In this document: positions 21,600-30,861 of the stretch, one piece after another
Numbering within the stretch: position 1 is the stretch's first letter
Layout: the number at the start of each line of letters is the position of its first letter
NCBI RefSeq assembly: GCF_021389935.1
Contig: NZ_CP089979.1
Span: 2,337,001-2,401,000 of the forward strand
DNA from: Fulvivirga ligni
Lineage (GTDB): Bacteria; Bacteroidota; Bacteroidia; Cytophagales; Cyclobacteriaceae
Length of the DNA stretch: 64,000 bases
Direction of reading: 5' to 3'
Notes under the pieces: generated by a model
What the model was told of the DNA's origin: nothing
Database searches by the model: none
Seen by the model: only the letters and a program-made list of their open reading frames with translations
Made by a program: the position numbers and the translations under genes

Positions 21600-22883
21600 T
21601 TAGCTTAAAGCCTTCTCCATTTTCTCTACAATCTTATCATTGCAAAGATTACCGATGCTTCCTTCATGAGTATGATGAACCTCTTTACTCGGTGAATATT
21701 TGCCTTCTTCAATCTCTTTACCCACTTTTTGGTAAGCCTCACGGAATGAAAGTCCATTTTGAACCTCTTTGTTCACCACCTCTACGCTGTACAAGTAATC
21801 GTATTTCGGATCATTAATGGCATCTTCGTTTACAATAATGTGCTGTAGCATAAACTCACATATCTGCAGGCATGATTTTAACTCAAAAAGGCCTGCAAAC
21901 AGGCTCTCTTTAAGAAGTTGGAAATCACGATGGTATCCACTTGGTAAGTTGTTGGTAATCAGCATTAGTTCTGTTGGTAATGCCTGTATTTTATTGCATT
22001 TACCTCTGATGAGTTCAAATACATCAGGGTTCTTTTTATGAGGCATGATGCTGGATCCTGTAGTCAGGTGAGCCGGGAAAGTAAGGAAACCAAAATTCTG
22101 ACTCATATAGAGGCAAACGTCCATAGCGAATTTTGACAATGTTCCAGCAGTACTAGCCAGAGCAAAACTCACTGACTTTTCTAATTTACCACGGCTCATT
22201 TGAGCGGCTACTGAGTTGAATTTCAGTGTACTAAATTCCATTTTCTGGGTAGTAGAAGTCCTGTTAATAGGAAAAGAACTACCATAACCAGCGGCGGAAC
22301 CCAACGGATTTTGATCAGAAATTTTAAACGCGGCATTCAAGAAATGAACGTCATCAACCAAAGCTTCTGCATAAGCGCCAAACCACATTCCAAAGGATGA
22401 TGGCATAGCTATTTGCAAGTGAGTATAGCCAGGAATTAGAATACCTTTATGCTCATTGCTCAGCGCAATAAGTCTGTCAAAAAGGTTTTTCACTAATGAT
22501 TTAATGGTGCCAATCTCTTCTTTGCAGAAAAGGTGCATATCCACTAAAACCTGATCATTTCTGGAACGGGCAGTATGGATTTTTTTGCCTGCTTCGCCTA
22601 ATTTCAGCGTGAGCTCATGCTCTATTTTAGAATGGACATCCTCAAAATTCTCATCAATGCTGAAGTTGCCTTCTTCTATATTTTTAAGAATAACTCTTAT
22701 CTCCTTATCAATGCCTTTGATGTCTTCATCTGTTAAAATGCCCACCTCATGAAGCATTTGAGCATGTGCCAGCGATCCTAAAGCATCATATTTTGCCAGA
22801 TGCAGATCGAGCTCACGGTCATTGCCTACGGTAAATTCTTCAACAGCAGTTTCTATTTTATATCCTTTGTCCCAAAGTTTCAT
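21600..22883 (-). CDS. argH: Argininosuccinate lyase
   Basis: Last enzyme of arginine synthesis, which splits argininosuccinate to arginine and fumarate. The fumarase-superfamily signature GSSIMPHKKNPD lies near 275-288, and the active-site His region HSKIEHELTLKLG and the ARSRNDQ block are present. The length of 427 is a little shorter than the usual about 460. It is the last gene of the long minus-strand arg operon and starts 3 bases after the M20 deacylase gene. Regulation is expected from the leader far upstream at 30.6-30.9 kb. Confidence 0.95.
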   Translation of the reverse strand: MKLWDKGYKIETAVEEFTVGNDRELDLHLAKYDALGSLAHAQMLHEVGILTDEDIKGIDKEIRVILKNIEEGNFSIDENFEDVHSKIEHELTLKLGEAGKKIHTARSRNDQVLVDMHLFCKEEIGTIKSLVKNLFDRLIALSNEHKGILIPGYTHLQIAMPSSFGMWFGAYAEALVDDVHFLNAAFKISDQNPLGSAAGYGSSFPINRTSTTQKMEFSTLKFNSVAAQMSRGKLEKSVSFALASTAGTLSKFAMDVCLYMSQNFGFLTFPAHLTTGSSIMPHKKNPDVFELIRGKCNKIQALPTELMLITNNLPSGYHRDFQLLKESLFAGLFELKSCLQICEFMLQHIIVNEDAINDPKYDYLYSVEVVNKEVQNGLSFREAYQKVGKEIEEGKYSPSKEVHHTHEGSIGNLCNDKIVEKMEKALS

Positions 22884-22886
22884 TCT

Positions 22887-23945
22887 TCAGTTTTTTAAAA
22901 ATCTTTCTAATAAATCAATATAGGTATCAATACCTTCTTCTATCTGCTTCACATAGATGAACTCATCGGCCGAATGTGACCGCTCTGAGTCTCCAGGGCC
23001 CAGCTTTATGCTAGGCGCATTGATCAGCGCCTGATCAGACATGGTTGGTGAGCCATAAGTCTTCATGCCCTTTTCAATGGCTATCTTGACTATCGGATGC
23101 TCCAGACTAATACCCGATGGCTTCAATCGTGTAGAACGAGCAGTAACTTCGCTCGAAGTATGTTCACTGATGATTTGCAGTATTTCTTCATGGCTGTAAG
23201 TATCTGTTAATCTTACATCAACCACAAAATGGCATTCGTCAGGCACCACATTGTGCTGAGTTCCTGCGTTTACCTGAGTCACGTTCATATGCACGGGGCC
23301 CAGAGTAGGGGAGACTTGAGCAAATTCATACTTTCTGAACCACTCAATGTCTTTTATGGCTTTATAAATGGCATTCTCACCTTCATTCCTGGCGGCATGT
23401 CCGGCTTTCCCTCTAGCTACACAGTCTAGCACCATCAGTCCTTTTTCAGAAACGGCCAGATCCATACTAGTTGGTTCGCCCACTATCGCCAAATCTATTT
23501 CACCCAAGCTGGGTAAAATGCTTTCTACACCATCTTTACCTGACACTTCTTCTTCAGCCGTGGCGGCATAGATCAAATTATGACTTAAGCCTTCCTGATC
23601 ATAAAAATGAAGGAATGTAGCTAGCAACGAAACTAATGGTCCGCCAGCATCATTACTGCCCAGTCCATAGAGTTTTCCATCAATCACCTCCGCTAGATGT
23701 GGGTCTCTGGTGTAGCTGGCATTTGGCTTTACTGTATCATGATGAGAGTTGAGTAAAAGTGTGGGTTTGTCTGCCGAAAAATGCTTATTCTTCGCCCAGA
23801 CATTGTTTTTGCTTCGCTCACAGGCAATACCCCTTCCATTCAAAAATTCTTCCATGAGATCAGCTGTTTTATCCTCTTCTCTGGAAAATGATGGAATGTT
23901 AATCAGGGATTTCAGTAAGCTAATCGCTTCTTCTGTTAAACTCAT
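22887..23945 (-). CDS. argE: M20 peptidase-family deacylase, N-acylcitrulline/N-acylornithine deacylase (ArgE-like)
   Basis: Zinc hydrolase of 352 residues that should remove the acyl group from N-acylcitrulline. Motifs are LNSHHDTVKP (His68-His69-Asp70) and ATAEEEVSG with the catalytic Glu pair near 127-130. The dimerisation domain lies at about 170-275 and the C-terminal His motif in ERSHSADEFI. It overlaps argB by 4 bases. Because the operon encodes an N-acylornithine carbamoyltransferase, the natural substrate is probably N-acetyl- or N-succinyl-citrulline and not acetylornithine. The acyl group cannot be read from this sequence. Confidence 0.9.
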   Translation of the reverse strand: MSLTEEAISLLKSLINIPSFSREEDKTADLMEEFLNGRGIACERSKNNVWAKNKHFSADKPTLLLNSHHDTVKPNASYTRDPHLAEVIDGKLYGLGSNDAGGPLVSLLATFLHFYDQEGLSHNLIYAATAEEEVSGKDGVESILPSLGEIDLAIVGEPTSMDLAVSEKGLMVLDCVARGKAGHAARNEGENAIYKAIKDIEWFRKYEFAQVSPTLGPVHMNVTQVNAGTQHNVVPDECHFVVDVRLTDTYSHEEILQIISEHTSSEVTARSTRLKPSGISLEHPIVKIAIEKGMKTYGSPTMSDQALINAPSIKLGPGDSERSHSADEFIYVKQIEEGIDTYIDLLERFLKN

Positions 23946-24715
23946 AACAAGCTGGTACCTAATGGTGATGTCAAATTCAAAGCATGTTTTACGGTTACGT
24001 TCACGCCTTGTCTTTTGGCAAGAAAAGCATTGTCAAGCTTTGGTATCATGCCTTGATGAATAACACCATCATCCTTTAATTGCTGAAAGTGAAGATAATT
24101 CAACTCACGGATGAGCGTGTTGTCATCTTCAACATCCAATAAAACACCATTTTTTTCGAAGCAATATATCAGCTCAGTATCATAACCTTCAGAAAGAGCT
24201 ATGGCCAAAGAAGAGGCCATGGTATCGGCATTCGTATTAAGCAAATGCCCCTGATTATCATGGGTTAAGGCACAGAATACTGGCACTAGTCCGCCATCTA
24301 TCAGGTAGCTTAGTCTCTCGGTATTGATATGGGAAGTATCTATATCACCAACAAAGCCATAGTCAATGTCATTGACAGGCCTTTTATTGGCAGGAATAGT
24401 ATTGGCATCCGCTCCGGTTAGCCCAATGGCATCGGTACCATAGCTTTGCAGAATGGCTATTACGTTTTTGTTCACTAATCCACCATACACCATAGTAACT
24501 ACTTCCAGGGTAGCGGCATCAGTAATGCGCCTGCCATCCACCATTTGAGTAGGTATTTTTAATCTTTTAGAAATGTCAGACGCAATTTTACCACCTCCAT
24601 GGACTAAAAGCTTAGCACCCTCCAGCTGACCAAACTCTTTAAGTACAGTTTGTAACATTTCGGGGTCATCAATTACGTTTCCTCCTATTTTTACTATGGT
24701 TAGTTTGGGCTTCAT
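23942..24715 (-). CDS. argB: N-acylglutamate kinase
   Basis: Amino-acid kinase that phosphorylates N-acetyl- or N-succinyl-glutamate, second step of arginine synthesis. 257 residues, with the N-terminal phosphate-binding VKIGGNVID, the LVHGGGKIASD motif, substrate contacts in DGRRITDAATLEVV and the NTNADTMASSLA block. It lacks the N-terminal helix found in arginine-inhibited hexameric forms, so feedback inhibition at this step is less likely. It overlaps the genes on both sides by 4 bases (argF' upstream, argE downstream), which indicates translational coupling. Confidence 0.95.
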   Translation of the reverse strand: MKPKLTIVKIGGNVIDDPEMLQTVLKEFGQLEGAKLLVHGGGKIASDISKRLKIPTQMVDGRRITDAATLEVVTMVYGGLVNKNVIAILQSYGTDAIGLTGADANTIPANKRPVNDIDYGFVGDIDTSHINTERLSYLIDGGLVPVFCALTHDNQGHLLNTNADTMASSLAIALSEGYDTELIYCFEKNGVLLDVEDDNTLIRELNYLHFQQLKDDGVIHQGMIPKLDNAFLAKRQGVNVTVKHALNLTSPLGTSLL

Positions 24716-25647
24716 AGATTTTCTAAAATTTCCTTCAACACGGCCTGTGCGGCATATTCTCTATTTTTTGCTTCCTGATAAACAATAGAATTGTCTATTA
24801 CGTCATCAGTGGCTATTACATTTCTTCTTATAGGTAAGCAATGCATAAACTTACCATTGTTTGTGAGCGCCATTTTTTCTGAAGTGATTCTCCAGTCTTC
24901 TTTCACCTCAGGTTTTTCACCATAATGGTGATAGCTGCTCCAGTTTTTTGCATAAATAATATCAGCCCCACTAAAAGCTTCCTCCTGATCATGCGTAACG
25001 TTAGCTCCAGCCATAAATTCATCGGCCAGTTCATACCCTTTTGGGCAGGCTATAGTGAGCTCTGCATCAGTTACTTTTACCCACTCGGCAAATGAATTAG
25101 GTACTGCCTGAGGCAAAATACGTGGATGTGGAGCCCAACTTAATACTACCTTTGGTTTTTTGACGCCAATTTCCTCAATAGTCACTAAATCAGCCAATGA
25201 TTGCAGCGGGTGGCGTGTTGCCGACTCCAGGCTTACAATGGGCACATCACTATATTTTATGAAGTTAGATATTACTTCTTCGTTATAATCTGAATCTCTA
25301 TCCTTAAGGCCAGGGAAGGTTCTTACACCCAGTATATCCACATACTGGCTCATCACTTTCACCGCGTCTTTAATATGTTCCTGACTGTCACCATCCATCA
25401 CGGCTCCGTCATTAAACTCTATCTTCCAGCCGTCCTTATCAATATTCATGTTGATCACATTCATACCCAGGTTCATGGCCGCCTTTTGGGTACTCATCCT
25501 TGTCCTTAAGCTGGGGTTGAAGAATACCAACCCCATGGTTTTGTTTTTTCCTATCTGGTTAGAAAATGGATCTTTTTTTAATTCTAATGCTTTTTTAACT
25601 AACCCTTTCGGGTCTTCTGTGTCCTTAACGGATATGAATTGCTTCAT
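24712..25647 (-). CDS. argF': N-acylornithine carbamoyltransferase (ArgF')
   Basis: Carbamoyltransferase of 311 residues of the acetyl/succinyl-ornithine class, which carbamoylates the acylated intermediate before deacylation. The carbamoyl-phosphate motif reads FNPSLRTRMSTQKA instead of the STRT of true ornithine enzymes, and WAPHPRILPQAVPNSFAEW and MHCLPIRRN are typical of the class. The residue that separates acetyl (Glu) from succinyl (Pro) enzymes aligns, from memory of the Bacteroides fragilis enzyme, with Gln89 in DSQEHIKDA, so it has neither. Its start overlaps argD by 23 bases. Confidence 0.92.
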   Translation of the reverse strand: MKQFISVKDTEDPKGLVKKALELKKDPFSNQIGKNKTMGLVFFNPSLRTRMSTQKAAMNLGMNVINMNIDKDGWKIEFNDGAVMDGDSQEHIKDAVKVMSQYVDILGVRTFPGLKDRDSDYNEEVISNFIKYSDVPIVSLESATRHPLQSLADLVTIEEIGVKKPKVVLSWAPHPRILPQAVPNSFAEWVKVTDAELTIACPKGYELADEFMAGANVTHDQEEAFSGADIIYAKNWSSYHHYGEKPEVKEDWRITSEKMALTNNGKFMHCLPIRRNVIATDDVIDNSIVYQEAKNREYAAQAVLKEILENL

Positions 25648-26785
25648 CAGCCTTTACTTTTGCTATTGCTCTATTTAATTTCTCTATAAACAAATTAGCA
25701 TCATTTTCACTTAGACTCAAAGGTGGAAGTAATCTAAGTACATTGGGATTGGATGCTACACCCGTAAAAACATGCTCCTCTTGCAGTAGCACCTGCCTTA
25801 ATTTTTTAATTGGAAAATCAAACTCAAGGGCTATCATGAGTCCTCTTCCCCTTATTTCTTTGATCTCCGGGATCTCTATGAATTTACTAAAAAAATAACT
25901 TCCTAGGTGTGAGGCGTTTGTAATTAATTTTTCACTTTCCATCACCTCTAACACCGCCAGGCCTGCCGCACATGCCAAATGGTTGCCTCCGAAAGTAGTG
26001 CCCAGTTGCCCATGCTTGGCTTCAAACTTAGGACTTATCAGCACGCCACCGATTGGAAACCCATTACCCATTCCTTTTGCCACCGTAATAAGGTCTGGTT
26101 TAATGTTAGCATATTGATGTGCGAAGAACTTACCAGTTCTCCCATATCCTGACTGAACTTCATCCAGAATAAGGATGGCATCATATTCCTCGCAAAGCTG
26201 CTTTAAGTTTCTAAGGAACTCATCATCAGGTAAATGTATTCCACCAACACCTTGAATTCCTTCAATAATAACAGCACAAACATTTCCTTTGTTTAACTCA
26301 GTTTCTACCGCATCAAGATCATTCAGCTCCACGAAAGTGGTGTTTGTAGTCTTGTTTACAGGAGCAATGTAATTGGTATTATCCGTAACAGAAACTGCTG
26401 CTGAAGTACGACCGTGAAAAGCCTTTTTGAATGCGATCACTCTACTTTTGTTAGTATGAAAAGAAGCCAGTTTTAAGGCGTTTTCATTGGCTTCAGCCCC
26501 GGAATTGCATAAAAAAAGGTCATAATCTTCATAACCTGAGAGTTGACCTAACTTTTGAGAGAGTTCTTTTTGAATTGGTATCTGCACTGAATTAGAGTAG
26601 AAACCTAGGTTCTGCAGCTGCTCGCTAATTTTCTTTACATAAACGGGGTGTGAATGACCAATGGAAATTACAGCATGACCGCCATAATAATCCAGGTATT
26701 CAGTGCCGTTGCTATCTATAATTTTACACCCTTCTGCTTTTACAGGCTCTATGTCCAGGAGTGGATAAACGTCAAATGGGTTCAT
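25625..26785 (-). CDS. argD: N-acylornithine aminotransferase
   Basis: Class III PLP aminotransferase, 386 residues, which converts N-acylglutamate semialdehyde to N-acylornithine. The PLP lysine is Lys237 in LITVAKGMGNGFPIG, with the cofactor Asp in LILDEVQSGYGRTG, FCNSGAEAN-type phosphate contacts (FLCNSGAEANENAL) and the ring-stacking block AFHGRT. It overlaps proC by 4 bases and argF' by 23. The family also includes ornithine and succinylornithine aminotransferases; the operon settles the pathway. Confidence 0.94.
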   Translation of the reverse strand: MNPFDVYPLLDIEPVKAEGCKIIDSNGTEYLDYYGGHAVISIGHSHPVYVKKISEQLQNLGFYSNSVQIPIQKELSQKLGQLSGYEDYDLFLCNSGAEANENALKLASFHTNKSRVIAFKKAFHGRTSAAVSVTDNTNYIAPVNKTTNTTFVELNDLDAVETELNKGNVCAVIIEGIQGVGGIHLPDDEFLRNLKQLCEEYDAILILDEVQSGYGRTGKFFAHQYANIKPDLITVAKGMGNGFPIGGVLISPKFEAKHGQLGTTFGGNHLACAAGLAVLEVMESEKLITNASHLGSYFFSKFIEIPEIKEIRGRGLMIALEFDFPIKKLRQVLLQEEHVFTGVASNPNVLRLLPPLSLSENDANLFIEKLNRAIAKVKADEAIHIR

Positions 26786-27591
26786 GATTTTTTCATTTTG
26801 TTAATTCGATCATAAGAAGTAACCAAACCTTTGATAAGGGCGGAGCTAAGTCCATTATGCTCCATCTCATTAAGTCCGGCAATGGTACACCCTTGAGGAG
26901 TAGTTACTCTGTCTATTTCCTGTTCTGGGTGGCTGTCGCTGCCGTCTAGCAGGCTAGCGGCTCCAAGGCAAGCTTGAACAGCTATCTTCTGAGCATCTTC
27001 AGCATCAAAGCCCAACTGCACGCCACCTTGTGTGGTAGCTCTGATGAAACGCATCCAAAACGCAATGCCGCTGGCACATACTACTGTGGCCGCTTGCATT
27101 AGGTTTTCTTCTATGACCATGGTCTTTCCTACGCAGTTAAAGATGGTTTGTACAGCGTCTAACTGCTTTTTACCAGCTGCATTATAAGCTATGCAGGTCA
27201 TGGACTGCCTTACGGCAATGGCCGTGTTGGGCATGGCCCTTATAATCGGAAATTGAAAGCCAACCATATTCTCTATCTCTTCAATAGCGATAGCAGTTAT
27301 TACTGAAATGAGCGTGTGCTTGTCCTGATCTAACGCAGGCTTCACCTCATTAACCACATCAGCTAACTGCCTGGGCTGCACAGCAAATATTACAATGTCC
27401 GCCTTTTCTACAGCCTCCTTATTATTGGTAGTAACCGTAGTAGATTTATGGCTAATGTCTTTTATGCTGCTAAGGTCCCTTCTGGTAAGAATAGCCTGAT
27501 TAGTTTCCAGTAAGCCACCGGCTTCCAGACCCTTATAAATGGCTAATCCTAAGTTTCCTGCTCCAAGAATGGCTATGGTTTGCTTTTGCAT
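26782..27591 (-). CDS. proC: Pyrroline-5-carboxylate reductase
   Basis: NAD(P)H-dependent reductase that makes proline from pyrroline-5-carboxylate, 269 residues. N-terminal Rossmann motif AILGAGNLGLAIYKGL, the RAMPNTA block, and the C-terminal signature VTTPQGCTIAGLNEME with the substrate-binding Thr-Pro-Gly-type loop. Its place inside the arginine operon, with 4-base overlap to argD and 2 bases after argC, is notable. Proline and arginine share glutamate as precursor, and ornithine can feed proline through glutamate semialdehyde. The upstream leader peptide contains both Arg and Pro codons, which fits joint control. Confidence 0.93.
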   Translation of the reverse strand: MQKQTIAILGAGNLGLAIYKGLEAGGLLETNQAILTRRDLSSIKDISHKSTTVTTNNKEAVEKADIVIFAVQPRQLADVVNEVKPALDQDKHTLISVITAIAIEEIENMVGFQFPIIRAMPNTAIAVRQSMTCIAYNAAGKKQLDAVQTIFNCVGKTMVIEENLMQAATVVCASGIAFWMRFIRATTQGGVQLGFDAEDAQKIAVQACLGAASLLDGSDSHPEQEIDRVTTPQGCTIAGLNEMEHNGLSSALIKGLVTSYDRINKMKKS

Positions 27592-27593
27592 GG

Positions 27594-28568
27594 TTAGAAT
27601 AAGTTAGCTTTTAGTTTTAATCCTGTGCTTTGGTCAAGGCCAAACATCAGGTTCATATTTTCGACCGCCTGGCCAGAGGCTCCTTTTAAAAGGTTATCTA
27701 TAATGCTGGTAATCAATATTTTGTTTTTGTGTTTCTCTACACTTACCAGAGCATTATTAGTATTAATCACCTGCTTTAGATGAATGCCTTGATCTGTTAC
27801 TGTAGTGAAAGCAGCATCTGCATAAAACTCCTGATAAAGCTTGAGCGCATCACTAGCAGAGCCTTCAAAAGTGGTGTATACAGAAGCCAGAATACCTCTT
27901 GAGAAATTACCTCTTACCGGAATAAAGTTGATATCCTGATCAAAGGCAGGTTGAAGACTTTTTACACTTTCCGTAATTTCTACAAGATGCTGATGTTCAA
28001 ATGCTTTATAGATGGACACGTTATTGTTTCTCCAGCTAAAGTGGGTAGTCGCTCCTGGAGCCTGACCGGCACCGGTAGAACCCGTAATGGCATTTACATG
28101 AACCTCATCTTTTAGTAAACCGGCCTGAGCTAAAGGTAGTATGGCTAGCTGTATAGCAGTAGCAAAGCAACCTGGATTAGCTATGTTTTTAGCGGAAGTT
28201 ATTTTTGACTTGTTTAGTTCTGGTAAGCCATAAACAAACGTTCTGTCATCCCACTGAGCCTTTGTCTGATGTCTGAAATCCTGACTAAGGTCAATGATTT
28301 TAGTTTGAGCATTGAAAGTGTGGTGATCTAAAAATTCTCTGGATTTACCATGTCCCTGACAAAGAAATACAACATCAGTTTCTTTGATTTCGGCACTGAA
28401 CTTTAGATCCGTTTGCCCCAGTAGGTCATCGTGAACACTGGTAATGTCGCGCTCGGCCTGACTGTTGCTATATAAATATGTGAGTTCAATATCAGGGTGG
28501 TTGATCAGGATTCTGATAAGCTCCCCAGCAGTATAACCTGCTGCCCCGATAATTCCTACTTTGATCAT
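27594..28568 (-). CDS. argC: N-acyl-gamma-glutamyl-phosphate reductase
   Basis: NADPH-dependent reductase giving N-acylglutamate semialdehyde, 324 residues. Rossmann start VGIIGAAGYTAGELIRIL, catalytic Cys134 in NPGCFATAIQLA, and the His region of GNFSRGILASVYT. Its ATG lies 166 bases after argG, the only long gap in the operon, which is filled with three related palindromes that may process or attenuate the message. Downstream proC follows after 2 bases. Confidence 0.95.
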   Translation of the reverse strand: MIKVGIIGAAGYTAGELIRILINHPDIELTYLYSNSQAERDITSVHDDLLGQTDLKFSAEIKETDVVFLCQGHGKSREFLDHHTFNAQTKIIDLSQDFRHQTKAQWDDRTFVYGLPELNKSKITSAKNIANPGCFATAIQLAILPLAQAGLLKDEVHVNAITGSTGAGQAPGATTHFSWRNNNVSIYKAFEHQHLVEITESVKSLQPAFDQDINFIPVRGNFSRGILASVYTTFEGSASDALKLYQEFYADAAFTTVTDQGIHLKQVINTNNALVSVEKHKNKILITSIIDNLLKGASGQAVENMNLMFGLDQSTGLKLKANLF

Positions 28569-28734: not shown

Positions 28735-29928
28735 TTATAATTCATTTACAGCGTAAAAGATCTTAGTCTGATTTGCCAATATTTTGGTAAATCCTTTCAC
28801 ATCTTCTCCGCTCCAGCCTTTGTTCATTTCTCCGTAGTTACCAAACTTAGAAGTCATTAAATCATGCTCAGATTCAATGCCTTGCAAAGCAAATTGGTAT
28901 GGGCTTAGCTTCATGTGCACCTTTCCTGTTACAAACTGCTGAGTGTCTTCCATGAACTTTTCAATGTTACGCATCACGGGATCAAGATATTGTCCTTCAT
29001 GCATCATCATGCCATACCAGCTGGCTAGTTGCTCTTTCCAGTGCTGCTGCCACTTGGTGAGTGTATGTTTTTCAAGTAGGTGGTGCGCTTTGATCAATAA
29101 AATTGGTGCTGCTGCCTCAAATCCTACTCTTCCTTTTATACCAATAATAGTGTCACCCACGTGTATGTCTCTTCCAATAGCATATTCACTAGCTACTTTA
29201 TTTAATAGCTGAATAGCTTTGGTAGGAGCCATGCTTTCGCCATCTACGGCTACAATTTCACCCTCTTTAAATTCTAAAGTAATGCTTTTAGGTTCCTTGT
29301 TTACTAACTGACTTGGGTAAGCCTCTTCTGGTAATGCATTTTTAGAAGTAAGCGTTTCTGCTCCACCCACGCTGGTTCCCCAAAGGCCTTTGTTGATAGA
29401 ATATTTCGCTTTCTCCCAGTTCATTTCCACCCCGTGAGATTTCAAATAATCGATCTCCGCTTGTCTGGATAGCTGAAGGTCACGGATAGGAGTGATGATC
29501 TTCGCTTCAGGGGCCATAATGTTGAAAACCAAATCAAAACGAACCTGATCATTACCTGCACCAGTACTACCATGAGCGATATATTCTGCTCCATGTTCTT
29601 TGGCGTACCTGGCTATGGCCATGGCTTGAAATACCCTCTCTGCACTTACAGATAGAGGATATGTGTTGTTTTTTAGTACGTTACCAAAAATAAGGTATTT
29701 GATAGCTTTTTGATAGAACTCATCTACCACATCAATGCTTTCATGATGCGCTACTCCAAGTTCCAAAGCATGTTTTTCAATTGCTTTAAGCTCTTCCTCA
29801 CCGAAGCCACCAGTGTTTACAAGCACCGAATGAACTTCAAGGTTCAGTTCGTGTTTTAAATATTTTACACAATAAGTGGTGTCTAGTCCACCACTAAAAG
29901 CTAAAACAACTTTACTTTGGTCAGCCAT
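28735..29928 (-). CDS. argG: Argininosuccinate synthase
   Basis: ATP-dependent ligase that joins citrulline and aspartate, 397 residues. The PP-loop motif VVLAFSGGLDTTYC is at the N-terminus, with HGSTGAGNDQVRFD and the tetramerisation tail present. Its start overlaps the GNAT gene by 28 bases. It is the second gene of the operon although it acts next to last, an order common in Bacteroidota arg operons. The 3' side carries a set of palindromic repeats before argC. Confidence 0.96.
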   Translation of the reverse strand: MADQSKVVLAFSGGLDTTYCVKYLKHELNLEVHSVLVNTGGFGEEELKAIEKHALELGVAHHESIDVVDEFYQKAIKYLIFGNVLKNNTYPLSVSAERVFQAMAIARYAKEHGAEYIAHGSTGAGNDQVRFDLVFNIMAPEAKIITPIRDLQLSRQAEIDYLKSHGVEMNWEKAKYSINKGLWGTSVGGAETLTSKNALPEEAYPSQLVNKEPKSITLEFKEGEIVAVDGESMAPTKAIQLLNKVASEYAIGRDIHVGDTIIGIKGRVGFEAAAPILLIKAHHLLEKHTLTKWQQHWKEQLASWYGMMMHEGQYLDPVMRNIEKFMEDTQQFVTGKVHMKLSPYQFALQGIESEHDLMTSKFGNYGEMNKGWSGEDVKGFTKILANQTKIFYAVNEL

Positions 29929-30605
29929 GATAAATTTTTAGAATTTTTAGGGTCTTGATTATTAATTTTTAATTTAATTTTTCCTTTCAAACGGTCAGCA
30001 CCATCTTTTAAAAAGCCTGTGAAGCGCTGCCATCTTTCTTCTTTACTGGCTTTAGCTACGCCACTTTTTGCTTGCTTGGCAGGATCATAGATCATGCCTG
30101 TGCATAGACAGTGAGCTCTGTTTGTACGGGTAAGAATGTCGTAGTTTTTACAGCTCTGACAGCCCTTCCAGAAGTCTTCATCAGTAGTAAGCTCAGAGAA
30201 AGTGGTTGGTTTGTAACCTAGTTCTGAGTTAATCTTCATTACTGCTAAGCTGGTAGTGATACCAAATATCTTTGATTCAGGATATTTCTTTCTGGATAGT
30301 TTAAAGATCTCATCTTTAATACGTTTGGCTAAACCAGTATTTCTGAAATCGGGGTGCACAATTAAGCCTGAGTTAGCCACATATTTACCATGTCCCCATG
30401 TTTCTATGTAGCAAAATCCTACGGGTTGATCGTCAGAAACAGCGATTACGGCTTTTCCTTCCATCATTTTGGCGCTCACGTATAATGGTGAACGTTTTGC
30501 AATACCGGTTCCGCGCTGGGCAGCAGCGGTTTCCATCATGTTGCAAATTTCTTCGGCGAAACGCAAATGCGTTTCATTAGCTATTGTGAGTTTTACTTCC
30601 GACAT
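29901..30605 (-). CDS. GNAT acyltransferase heading the arg operon (candidate N-acylglutamate synthase)
   Basis: First gene of the arginine operon, 234 residues. A GNAT core (about 5-135) has the acyl-CoA loop RNTGLAKRI near 89-97. After it comes a Cys cluster, CQSC and CLC (Cys149, 152, 166, 168), that may bind a metal, then a basic tail. Bacteroidota lack classical ArgA, and acyltransferases in this position have been assigned as the missing N-acetyl- or N-succinyl-glutamate synthase; the operon otherwise has every step from glutamate to arginine except this one. Whether acetyl- or succinyl-CoA is used is open. The ATG at 30605 follows a 110-base stretch after the leader reading frame. Confidence 0.85.
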   Translation of the reverse strand: MSEVKLTIANETHLRFAEEICNMMETAAAQRGTGIAKRSPLYVSAKMMEGKAVIAVSDDQPVGFCYIETWGHGKYVANSGLIVHPDFRNTGLAKRIKDEIFKLSRKKYPESKIFGITTSLAVMKINSELGYKPTTFSELTTDEDFWKGCQSCKNYDILTRTNRAHCLCTGMIYDPAKQAKSGVAKASKEERWQRFTGFLKDGADRLKGKIKLKINNQDPKNSKNLSWLTKVKLF

Positions 30606-30715
30606 TATTGAAAATCGAAATTATATTTGTGAATGCCTTGCGGCAAAAATTTAAAATAGGAAATAATAAAAAGATATGTGTGTGCACGATGGGACGTACC
30701 CCCGGCTAGATGCTA

Positions 30716-30823
30716 TTACCCCAACAGGGGCCTAAATGGCCTAAACCTAAGCACAGGAGTATACACAACCGCAGCTGGAGAAGCCGGGCTATTCATGGGT
30801 GTATATGTGCTTGAGTTAATCAT
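30716..30823 (-). CDS. Candidate leader peptide of the arg operon (35 codons)
   Basis: A short frame from ATG 30823 (inner ATG at 30796) to TAA 30716, about 110 bases before the first arg gene. The C-terminal third reads VLRFRPFRPLLG, with three Arg codons (all AGG) at 26, 28 and 31; six Pro are spread along the peptide. The operon makes arginine and contains proC. The message before the Arg codons folds into a strong hairpin, and a U-rich stretch follows the frame. This is the layout of ribosome-dependent attenuation. The inner start fits better if transcription begins near 30825. It is too short for codon statistics, so the call rests on position and content. Confidence 0.55.
   Translation of the reverse strand: MINSSTYTPMNSPASPAAVVYTPVLRFRPFRPLLG
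30749..30812. promoter_or_regulatory. Long hairpin within the arg leader region
   Basis: The arm at 30799-30812 pairs with 30749-30755 plus 30760-30766: 14 base pairs interrupted only by a 4-base bulge (30756-30759). A smaller GC-rich hairpin sits inside. On the minus strand it ends just before the first Arg codon of the leader peptide. The TGTGC in its 3' arm can also pair with GCACA at 30685-30681, next to the T-rich stretch, so two exclusive folds are possible. A plus-strand small RNA in the same place cannot be excluded. Confidence 0.55.
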
Positions 30824-30829
30824 TTGCAT

Positions 30830-30861
30830 CAAAGGTTAAAAACTTATTTGGATTTACCAAA
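30830..30861 (-). promoter_or_regulatory. Candidate promoter of the arginine operon
   Basis: On the minus strand TTTG (30861-30858), 19 bases, then TAaccTTTG (30838-30830), the Bacteroidota pattern with one extra base in the -7 box. Predicted start near 30825, just before the leader frame. The -33 box lies inside the palindrome at 30841-30867. Confidence 0.4.

Follow-up and report, generated by a model that had tools for sequence, protein, structure and literature searches.

Conserved arginine-codon leader frame and covarying hairpins ahead of the arginine operon of Fulvivirga ligni and its relatives

Results

The window, that is, the whole 64,000-nt stretch of DNA analysed here, is part of the 6.5 Mb genome of Fulvivirga ligni, and the arginine feature found in it lies on the minus strand. 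Family searches and the sequence as read gave a nine-gene operon in the order GNAT-argG-argC-proC-argD-argF-argB-argE-argH:

29901..30605, minus strand: GNAT acetyltransferase, operon gene 1 (family search)
28735..29928, minus strand: argG (family search)
27594..28568, minus strand: argC (family search)
26782..27591, minus strand: proC (family search)
25625..26785, minus strand: argD-type aminotransferase (match to the argD subfamily model, with a score below its cut-off)
24712..25647, minus strand: argF-type carbamoyltransferase (name read off the sequence, no family search)
23942..24715, minus strand: argB-type kinase (name read off the sequence)
22887..23945, minus strand: argE-type deacylase (name read off the sequence)
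21600..22883, minus strand: argH-type lyase (name read off the sequence)

The top named match of the GNAT gene was from Fulvivirga marina (74% identity; very near records were possibly omitted), and its product may be the acyl-glutamate-forming enzyme of the arginine pathway, possibly with a metal site. All nine genes were matched in the same order in eight of 20 regions fetched from relatives; the remainder had fewer, and one region was short. An alignment of the operon-head GNAT with 16 relatives showed invariant cysteines at C64, C148, C151, C165 and C167.

The following elements were located ahead of the operon:

30830..30837, minus strand: putative -7 promoter box AACCTTTG (consensus TAnnTTTG), 6 nt 5′ of the ATG of the 35-codon leader
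30716..30823, minus strand: leader ORF MINSSTYTPMNSPASPAAVVYTPVLRFRPFRPLLG, 35 codons plus stop (ORF translation, peptide search and relatives' alignment)
30799..30817, minus strand: 5′ arm of hairpin H0 (fold and covariation; native vs swapped partner segments of the Fulvivirga group, z -5.3)
30744..30766, minus strand: 3′ arm of H0, ending at the first Arg codon (fold and covariation)
30719..30730, minus strand: hairpin H1, CCCC-TGTT-GGGG, over the last codons and adjoining the stop (sequence; position kept, little covariation)
30687..30705, minus strand: hairpin H2, loop UACGU at 30694-30698, stem imperfect here (loop pattern and relatives' alignment)
30606..30686, minus strand: stretch from H2 to the GNAT start (G-poor, with C over G, in relatives)

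The gap between the leader stop and the GNAT start (30605) is 110 nt, as stated in the original prediction, which had placed an operon for arginine synthesis, proC included, about 110 bases after a leader frame. The three AGG codons close to the end of this frame and the six Pro codons overall, also part of that prediction, are present at minus 30823-30716, and the peptide ends in RFRPFRPLLG. A shorter frame of 26 codons had been suggested from an inner ATG, which proved not to be conserved in the relatives' alignment. Another in-frame ATG two codons upstream would yield 37 codons; the relatives' alignment favours the 35-codon start.

TAnnTTTG is the -7 consensus of the phylum according to passages of two reports (PMC9723704, PMC7366714). 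The TTTG of this box was present 0-9 nt 5′ of the leader ATG at all 13 Fulvivirga-group loci (exact TAnnTTTG at three of 13). A TTTG box was also found 5′ of the leader ATG at 11 of 17 Flavobacteriia-type loci (exact at nine of 17) and at four of 11 Spirosoma-like loci (exact at none). At loci that use the TTTG box, transcription would begin a few bases 5′ of the leader ATG. A transcription start downstream of 30716, which had been named as a finding that would speak against a leader, is not suggested, the promoter being predicted 5′ of the frame.

When the 26-residue peptide was used as query, syntenic matches came from seven relatives, with E values from 3e-6 to 5.6. Regions upstream of GNAT genes were then compared, from the 44 of 58 genomes (F. 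ligni included) that gave a match and from the 80 named loci that ranked highest among at least 589 candidates. Pooling gave 121 distinct regions, the duplicates L120, L129 and L181 being dropped before counting. The sampled loci belong to Bacteroidota and neighbouring groups, and argG was inside the fetched stretch in 94 of them; many loci without argG are short fetched stretches. An upstream frame with at least three Arg within its last 14 codons was present at 75 of the 94 argG-containing loci; dinucleotide shuffling, repeated 20 times, gave a mean of 12.2 and a maximum of 18. Chance would thus account for about 12 of the 75, and some passing loci look doubtful. The 35-codon frame ahead of the operon is real and conserved. 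In the same tail count Pro came second after Arg (34 loci vs 10.1 in shuffles), Ala (14 vs 6.5) and Thr (16 vs 8.4) also beat all shuffles, and eight other residues did not.

This count by frame and stop was used in place of a reverse-complement control. Arg richness on the reverse complement could not serve as a control (63 forward vs 67 reverse of 120) because runs of CGN codons encode Arg on both strands. A stricter count, four Arg in 12 residues, picked up only three of the 17 loci that come from genomes close to that of the window, where most leaders have three Arg. The 19 argG-containing loci that missed the Arg criterion include eight of ten loci that we take, from record names, to be of Bacteroidales type; L018, L030, L152 and L161 missed it despite a visible H2. 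Examples of the conserved tail are RIRAARPLAGI, RFRPIRPLLG, FTPTRRRP, HTTPFRFRSERTI and VLRIPRRR, and the remainder of the peptide varies from group to group. The leaders of the Balneola- and Rhodothermus-type loci L154, L177, L189 and L190 end in IPRRR, and by eye these loci carry a hairpin at the H2 position without the conserved loop.

The choice of Arg codons in the leader tails (n = 292: AGG 111, CGC 71, CGG 43, CGT 37, CGA 24, AGA 6) was compared with that in argG of the same loci (n = 828: CGC 218, CGT 186, CGG 142, AGA 132, AGG 79, CGA 71). AGA makes up half of the Arg codons of the window, yet only six of 292 in the leader tails vs 132 of 828 in argG. Codon bias in attenuator leaders is known, and the explanation offered for it in part of one source is selective charging of isoacceptors (PMC1183508).

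Of the 67 leaders retained after 22 of 89 had been removed by hand, 59 have at least one Pro among the five residues preceding the Arg cluster, and all four Pro codons occur. This Pro is often preceded by Thr, Ala or Ser. Sensing of tRNA-Pro, which the original prediction had raised as a possibility, may or may not accompany this; in a comparison with proC, the operons of L258, L266 and L269 had a clear leader and no proC match.

The fold of the window's leader taken alone is unremarkable (z -1.66, with 12 of 200 shuffles as stable), so the evidence for the leader is comparative. Covariation was tested by comparing native with swapped partner segments in three groups of loci, and relatedness can inflate the resulting z values. 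The Fulvivirga group comprised 13 loci, 11 of the 13 own-genus loci and two of the family, with L018 and L026 left out for their divergent leaders; 15 Flavobacteriia-type, 13 Spirosoma-like and ten other loci were chosen for recognisable elements. H0, in which the start of the leader frame pairs with the bases directly before the Arg codons, and H2 gave the strongest pairs in the Fulvivirga group (z -5.3 and -5.1, respectively). Inner H0 (z -5.1), H2 (z -4.0) and outer H0 (z -3.0) stood out in the Flavobacteriia-type group; the Spirosoma-like group showed H2 (z -4.3), with H0 absent from its covarying pairs. The comparison across relatives, set beforehand as a test of the prediction, showed conserved Arg codons with Pro residues near them, and covariation of H0 and H2. 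The stem predicted ahead of the Arg codons is present, 30744-30766 pairing with 30799-30817, and covaries in relatives.

The same cannot be said of the alternative partner proposed for its 3′ arm. GCACA is present at 30685-30681, but the pairing is absent among the strongest covarying window pairs listed, and only L002-L004 of the 13 aligned loci have an ACAC-type sequence there. The scan of the three groups found no competing structure matching H0 or H2 in strength. Besides these hairpins there were weaker pairs with z of about -3.2 to -3.8. One of them joins the 5′ arms of H0 and H2 in the Fulvivirga group (z -3.8), and another joins the Arg-codon region to sequence closer to the GNAT gene in the Spirosoma-like group (z -3.6); they are insufficient for claiming a competing structure, which may nonetheless exist. 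Readings of the region as a plus-strand RNA (ordinary fold, z 0.40), a repeat element (the region was matched once in the genome) or a DNA operator (stem sequence changes while pairing is kept) were rejected. An antitermination site of the boxB/boxA kind known from rRNA leaders was considered as a further candidate; a search of the F. ligni genome for 16S returned nothing.

H2 was recognised in 32 of 44 regions (F. ligni included), 58-151 nt before the GNAT start, with loops UAYGY in 30, UAAGU in one and CAUGU in one. Selection of the sites required the loop pattern and three or more pairs next to it, and the invariance of the loop and the inner pairs are therefore partly built in. Among the 31 distinct sequences, 89.9% of cells pair vs 48.8% in shuffles and seven of seven pairs show two-sided changes; the four outer pairs, which were not used in picking, pair in 102 of 124 cells. 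A model built from these sites (R1) was run on both strands of 77 named loci (266,903 bases) and gave 21 matches at E ≤ 5, all on the plus strand at locus positions 1309-1458, immediately 5′ of the GNAT gene; the F. ligni copy was missed by R1 at E up to 10. A Flavobacteriia-type variant has the loop UGNGU in all 18 loci given.

The spacing of these elements is regular. The first base of the H2 loop lies 32-37 nt past the H1-opening Arg codon in 50 of the 51 chosen loci: 34-35 in the 13 Fulvivirga-group, 34-37 in the 15 Flavobacteriia-type, 32-34 in the 13 Spirosoma-like and 32-37 in nine of the ten other loci. The exception, L062, has 25, where the pattern hit an earlier TATGC and a UACGU loop lies 10 nt further on. 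The distance from the first Arg codon to H2 is less regular. The leader stop lies 2-21 nt 5′ of the H2 stem in the 39 leaders measured. At L140 and L150 the Arg leader frame extends into H2, and its stop falls at the H2 3′ arm or directly behind it. From H2 to the GNAT start there are 48-56 nt in 15 of 15 Flavobacteriia-type loci, and a varying 91-159 nt in the Spirosoma-like group.

A role for H2 in leaders at large was rejected, the other loci searched being practically without it. The 20 hisG regions yielded a single chance-like hairpin (L087, at -306), and 19 of 21 ilvD loci examined had none. A single chance-like case (L097) appeared among 26 homoserine dehydrogenase loci, a weak test, as fused genes are still coding 1500 nt upstream of the domain. 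The H2 model gave 49 hits at E up to 10 on 15 genomes, 13 of them the arg site, which was the best hit in 13 of the 15; the arg H2 of all 15 genomes was in the model, and the search thus tests uniqueness, not presence. Eleven of the 36 non-arg hits were examined and ten lie inside longer ORFs; that of L242 is intergenic, ahead of an opposite-strand gene.

Terminator-like sites were rare before the arginine operons. A scan of 200 nt found them in 15 of 121 arg regions, one strong, vs 16 of 19 hisG regions, 13 strong (one of 20 hisG regions, L075, was removed from these counts); an earlier scan of 150 nt for arg and 200 nt for his gave 12 of 121 vs 16 of 19. The sole strong arg site, L069, has no visible leader, and the F. 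ligni arg region (L002) was not among the terminator-like sites in the 200 nt scan. The site coincides with H1 or H2 in six of the 15 regions, a U-rich stretch following H2 in L063, L136 and L147 and H1 in L017, L019 and L180; in the last three H1 could be a weak terminator. The U-rich tract predicted after the hairpin in F. ligni was found at about 30672-30646 in interrupted form. The 40 nt after H2 are generally pyrimidine-rich, with 3-9% G and 13-40% C in 69 loci. The last 60 nt before the start hold C 13.3 and G 7.4 in the 121 arg regions, C 9.2 and G 9.9 in 55 uncurated ORFs of the window, and C 10.5 and G 9.4 in 19 hisG regions. An excess of C over G marks Rho sites, and the tract after H2 is a possible one. 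As an indication of Rho this is weak, and a start region without structure could give a similar picture.

A poly-His leader (at least four His in 12 residues) was present in 14 of the 19 hisG regions. Upstream of hisG in the F. ligni genome itself (L076, C1:5145594), the His leader MNLSVNKYHHHHHHFNIDLMHGRYMF is followed by an intrinsic terminator, which looks like a classical his attenuator. Since the his operon has a poly-His leader and a terminator, control by leader peptides is at home in this lineage.

Discussion

The frame with its Arg codons, the covariation of H0 and H2, the regular spacing and the scarcity of intrinsic terminators all emerge from comparison of the loci. It is very probable, judging from the sequences, that the arginine leader, read by ribosomes, is the sensor. 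As to the whole account, we lean slightly towards a ribosome-mediated arginine attenuator that senses Arg-tRNA and acts through early, non-canonical, perhaps Rho-type termination; the pausing, the direction of control and the role of Rho are what we infer in it. The transcript would probably begin a few bases before the leader ATG, and a ribosome would follow RNA polymerase while translating the leader. Under a shortage of charged tRNA-Arg, this ribosome would pause on the terminal Arg codons and H0 and H1 would stay open; during the pause H2, which begins some 25-28 nt past the H1-opening Arg codon, could fold, and the arg operon would be transcribed. When arginine is plentiful, the ribosome would reach the stop, usually close to H2, and depart, and H0 and H1 would close. 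The RNA beyond would then be untranslated, and transcription would most likely end early in the G-poor tract with C over G, in a Rho-type manner. With no competing structure found that equals H0 or H2 in strength, the model lacks a step connecting ribosome position with output. Of the original prediction, the Arg leader peptide with a stem before its Arg codons is supported by conservation and covariation, and GCACA as the switch partner is not supported.

It is conceivable, though with little confidence on our part, that H2, with its UNNGY-type loop 32-37 nt from the H1-opening Arg codon, is a new RNA element that serves only the arginine operon; it would read ribosome position and might bind a factor shielding the transcript from Rho. 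The near-constant distance from H2 to the GNAT start in the Flavobacteriia-type loci, as if the initiation region mattered, would rather suit a leader that governs translation or stability of the mRNA and not termination, pausing at Arg codons choosing between a cut or silent and an intact RNA, as with orf34 and speF; for orf34, passages of one report describe Arg codons that sense arginine and an effect on mRNA decay (PMC6386406). The variable distance in the Spirosoma-like group speaks against it, as does the covariation scan, in which no strong pair joined H0 or H2 to the GNAT start region in any of the three groups; the one weaker pair, in the Spirosoma-like group (z -3.6), joins the Arg-codon region to sequence closer to the start. 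We consider this reading unlikely.

Classical attenuation, with mutually exclusive hairpins and an intrinsic terminator for which H1 or H2 would serve in a weak form, could draw on the generally pyrimidine-rich sequence and on the U-rich stretches after H2 or H1 at six loci. Yet no strong alternative partner was found for any arm, and the contrast with the hisG regions, in which strong terminators abound while the one strong arg site is leaderless, renders it quite improbable. The conservation of Pro beside the Arg cluster is not required by the attenuation model. With four Pro codons in use, it is the residue that is kept and not the codon, which would fit ribosome arrest by the nascent Pro-Arg peptide, for which arginine or charged tRNA would be a co-signal, and not slow decoding alone. 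Other parts of the peptide differ among groups, however, and the biased choice of Arg codons points to decoding; peptide arrest is the reading to which we give least credit.

Accounts of arginine operons usually centre on the repressor ArgR. A leader-peptide device in Cytophagales, Flavobacteriia and some neighbours would explain arginine sensing there, and the arg leader would allow attenuation that lacks an intrinsic terminator to be studied, together with a conserved hairpin, H2. Rfam gave no family match for the leader and, within the window, only a tRNA elsewhere; a further Rfam search gave three matches, all far below cut-off. The leader peptides had no NCBIfam match and one Pfam match below cut-off, to a yeast repeat. 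The original prediction knew of no described leader of this kind; literature searches, which found no such arginine leader in Bacteroidota, do not contradict it, and the tables of PMC9723704 may hold one. Passages of that report give clues for leader peptide attenuation ahead of amino acid operons in Flavobacterium psychrophilum, and parts of other sources mention leader-like small ORFs in B. thetaiotaomicron (PMC7366714) and describe uORF candidates in other phyla (PMC8632094).

A candidate cis-regulatory RNA of Bacteroidetes, Bacteroid-trp (RF01692), is named in part of PMC2864571. By its name it belongs to trp genes, unlike the arg leader, and its covariance model matched none of 19 genomes of the order, F. 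ligni included; a match was obtained in Bacteroides ihuae among 14 control genomes. In attenuators of the trp, his and leu type, the operon is preceded by a short ORF that carries codons for the amino acid being made. The arg leader resembles them as a short ORF with cognate codons before a biosynthetic operon, and differs in that an intrinsic terminator is rare and no strong competing hairpin was found. The his leader of the same lineage is likewise a short frame with consecutive control codons ahead of a biosynthetic operon, but it ends in a strong intrinsic terminator and, bar the chance-like L087, is without H2. Another relevant case is orf34, the speF leader of Salmonella. It controls polyamine synthesis, belongs to another phylum and has its sensing Arg codons, 12 and 13, in a conserved DUF2618 domain, for which seven arg leader peptides gave no Pfam match at E up to 10. 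Like the arg leader, it is an upstream ORF in which Arg codons sense arginine, and, as part of the same report states, its translation interferes with Rho-dependent termination (PMC6386406).
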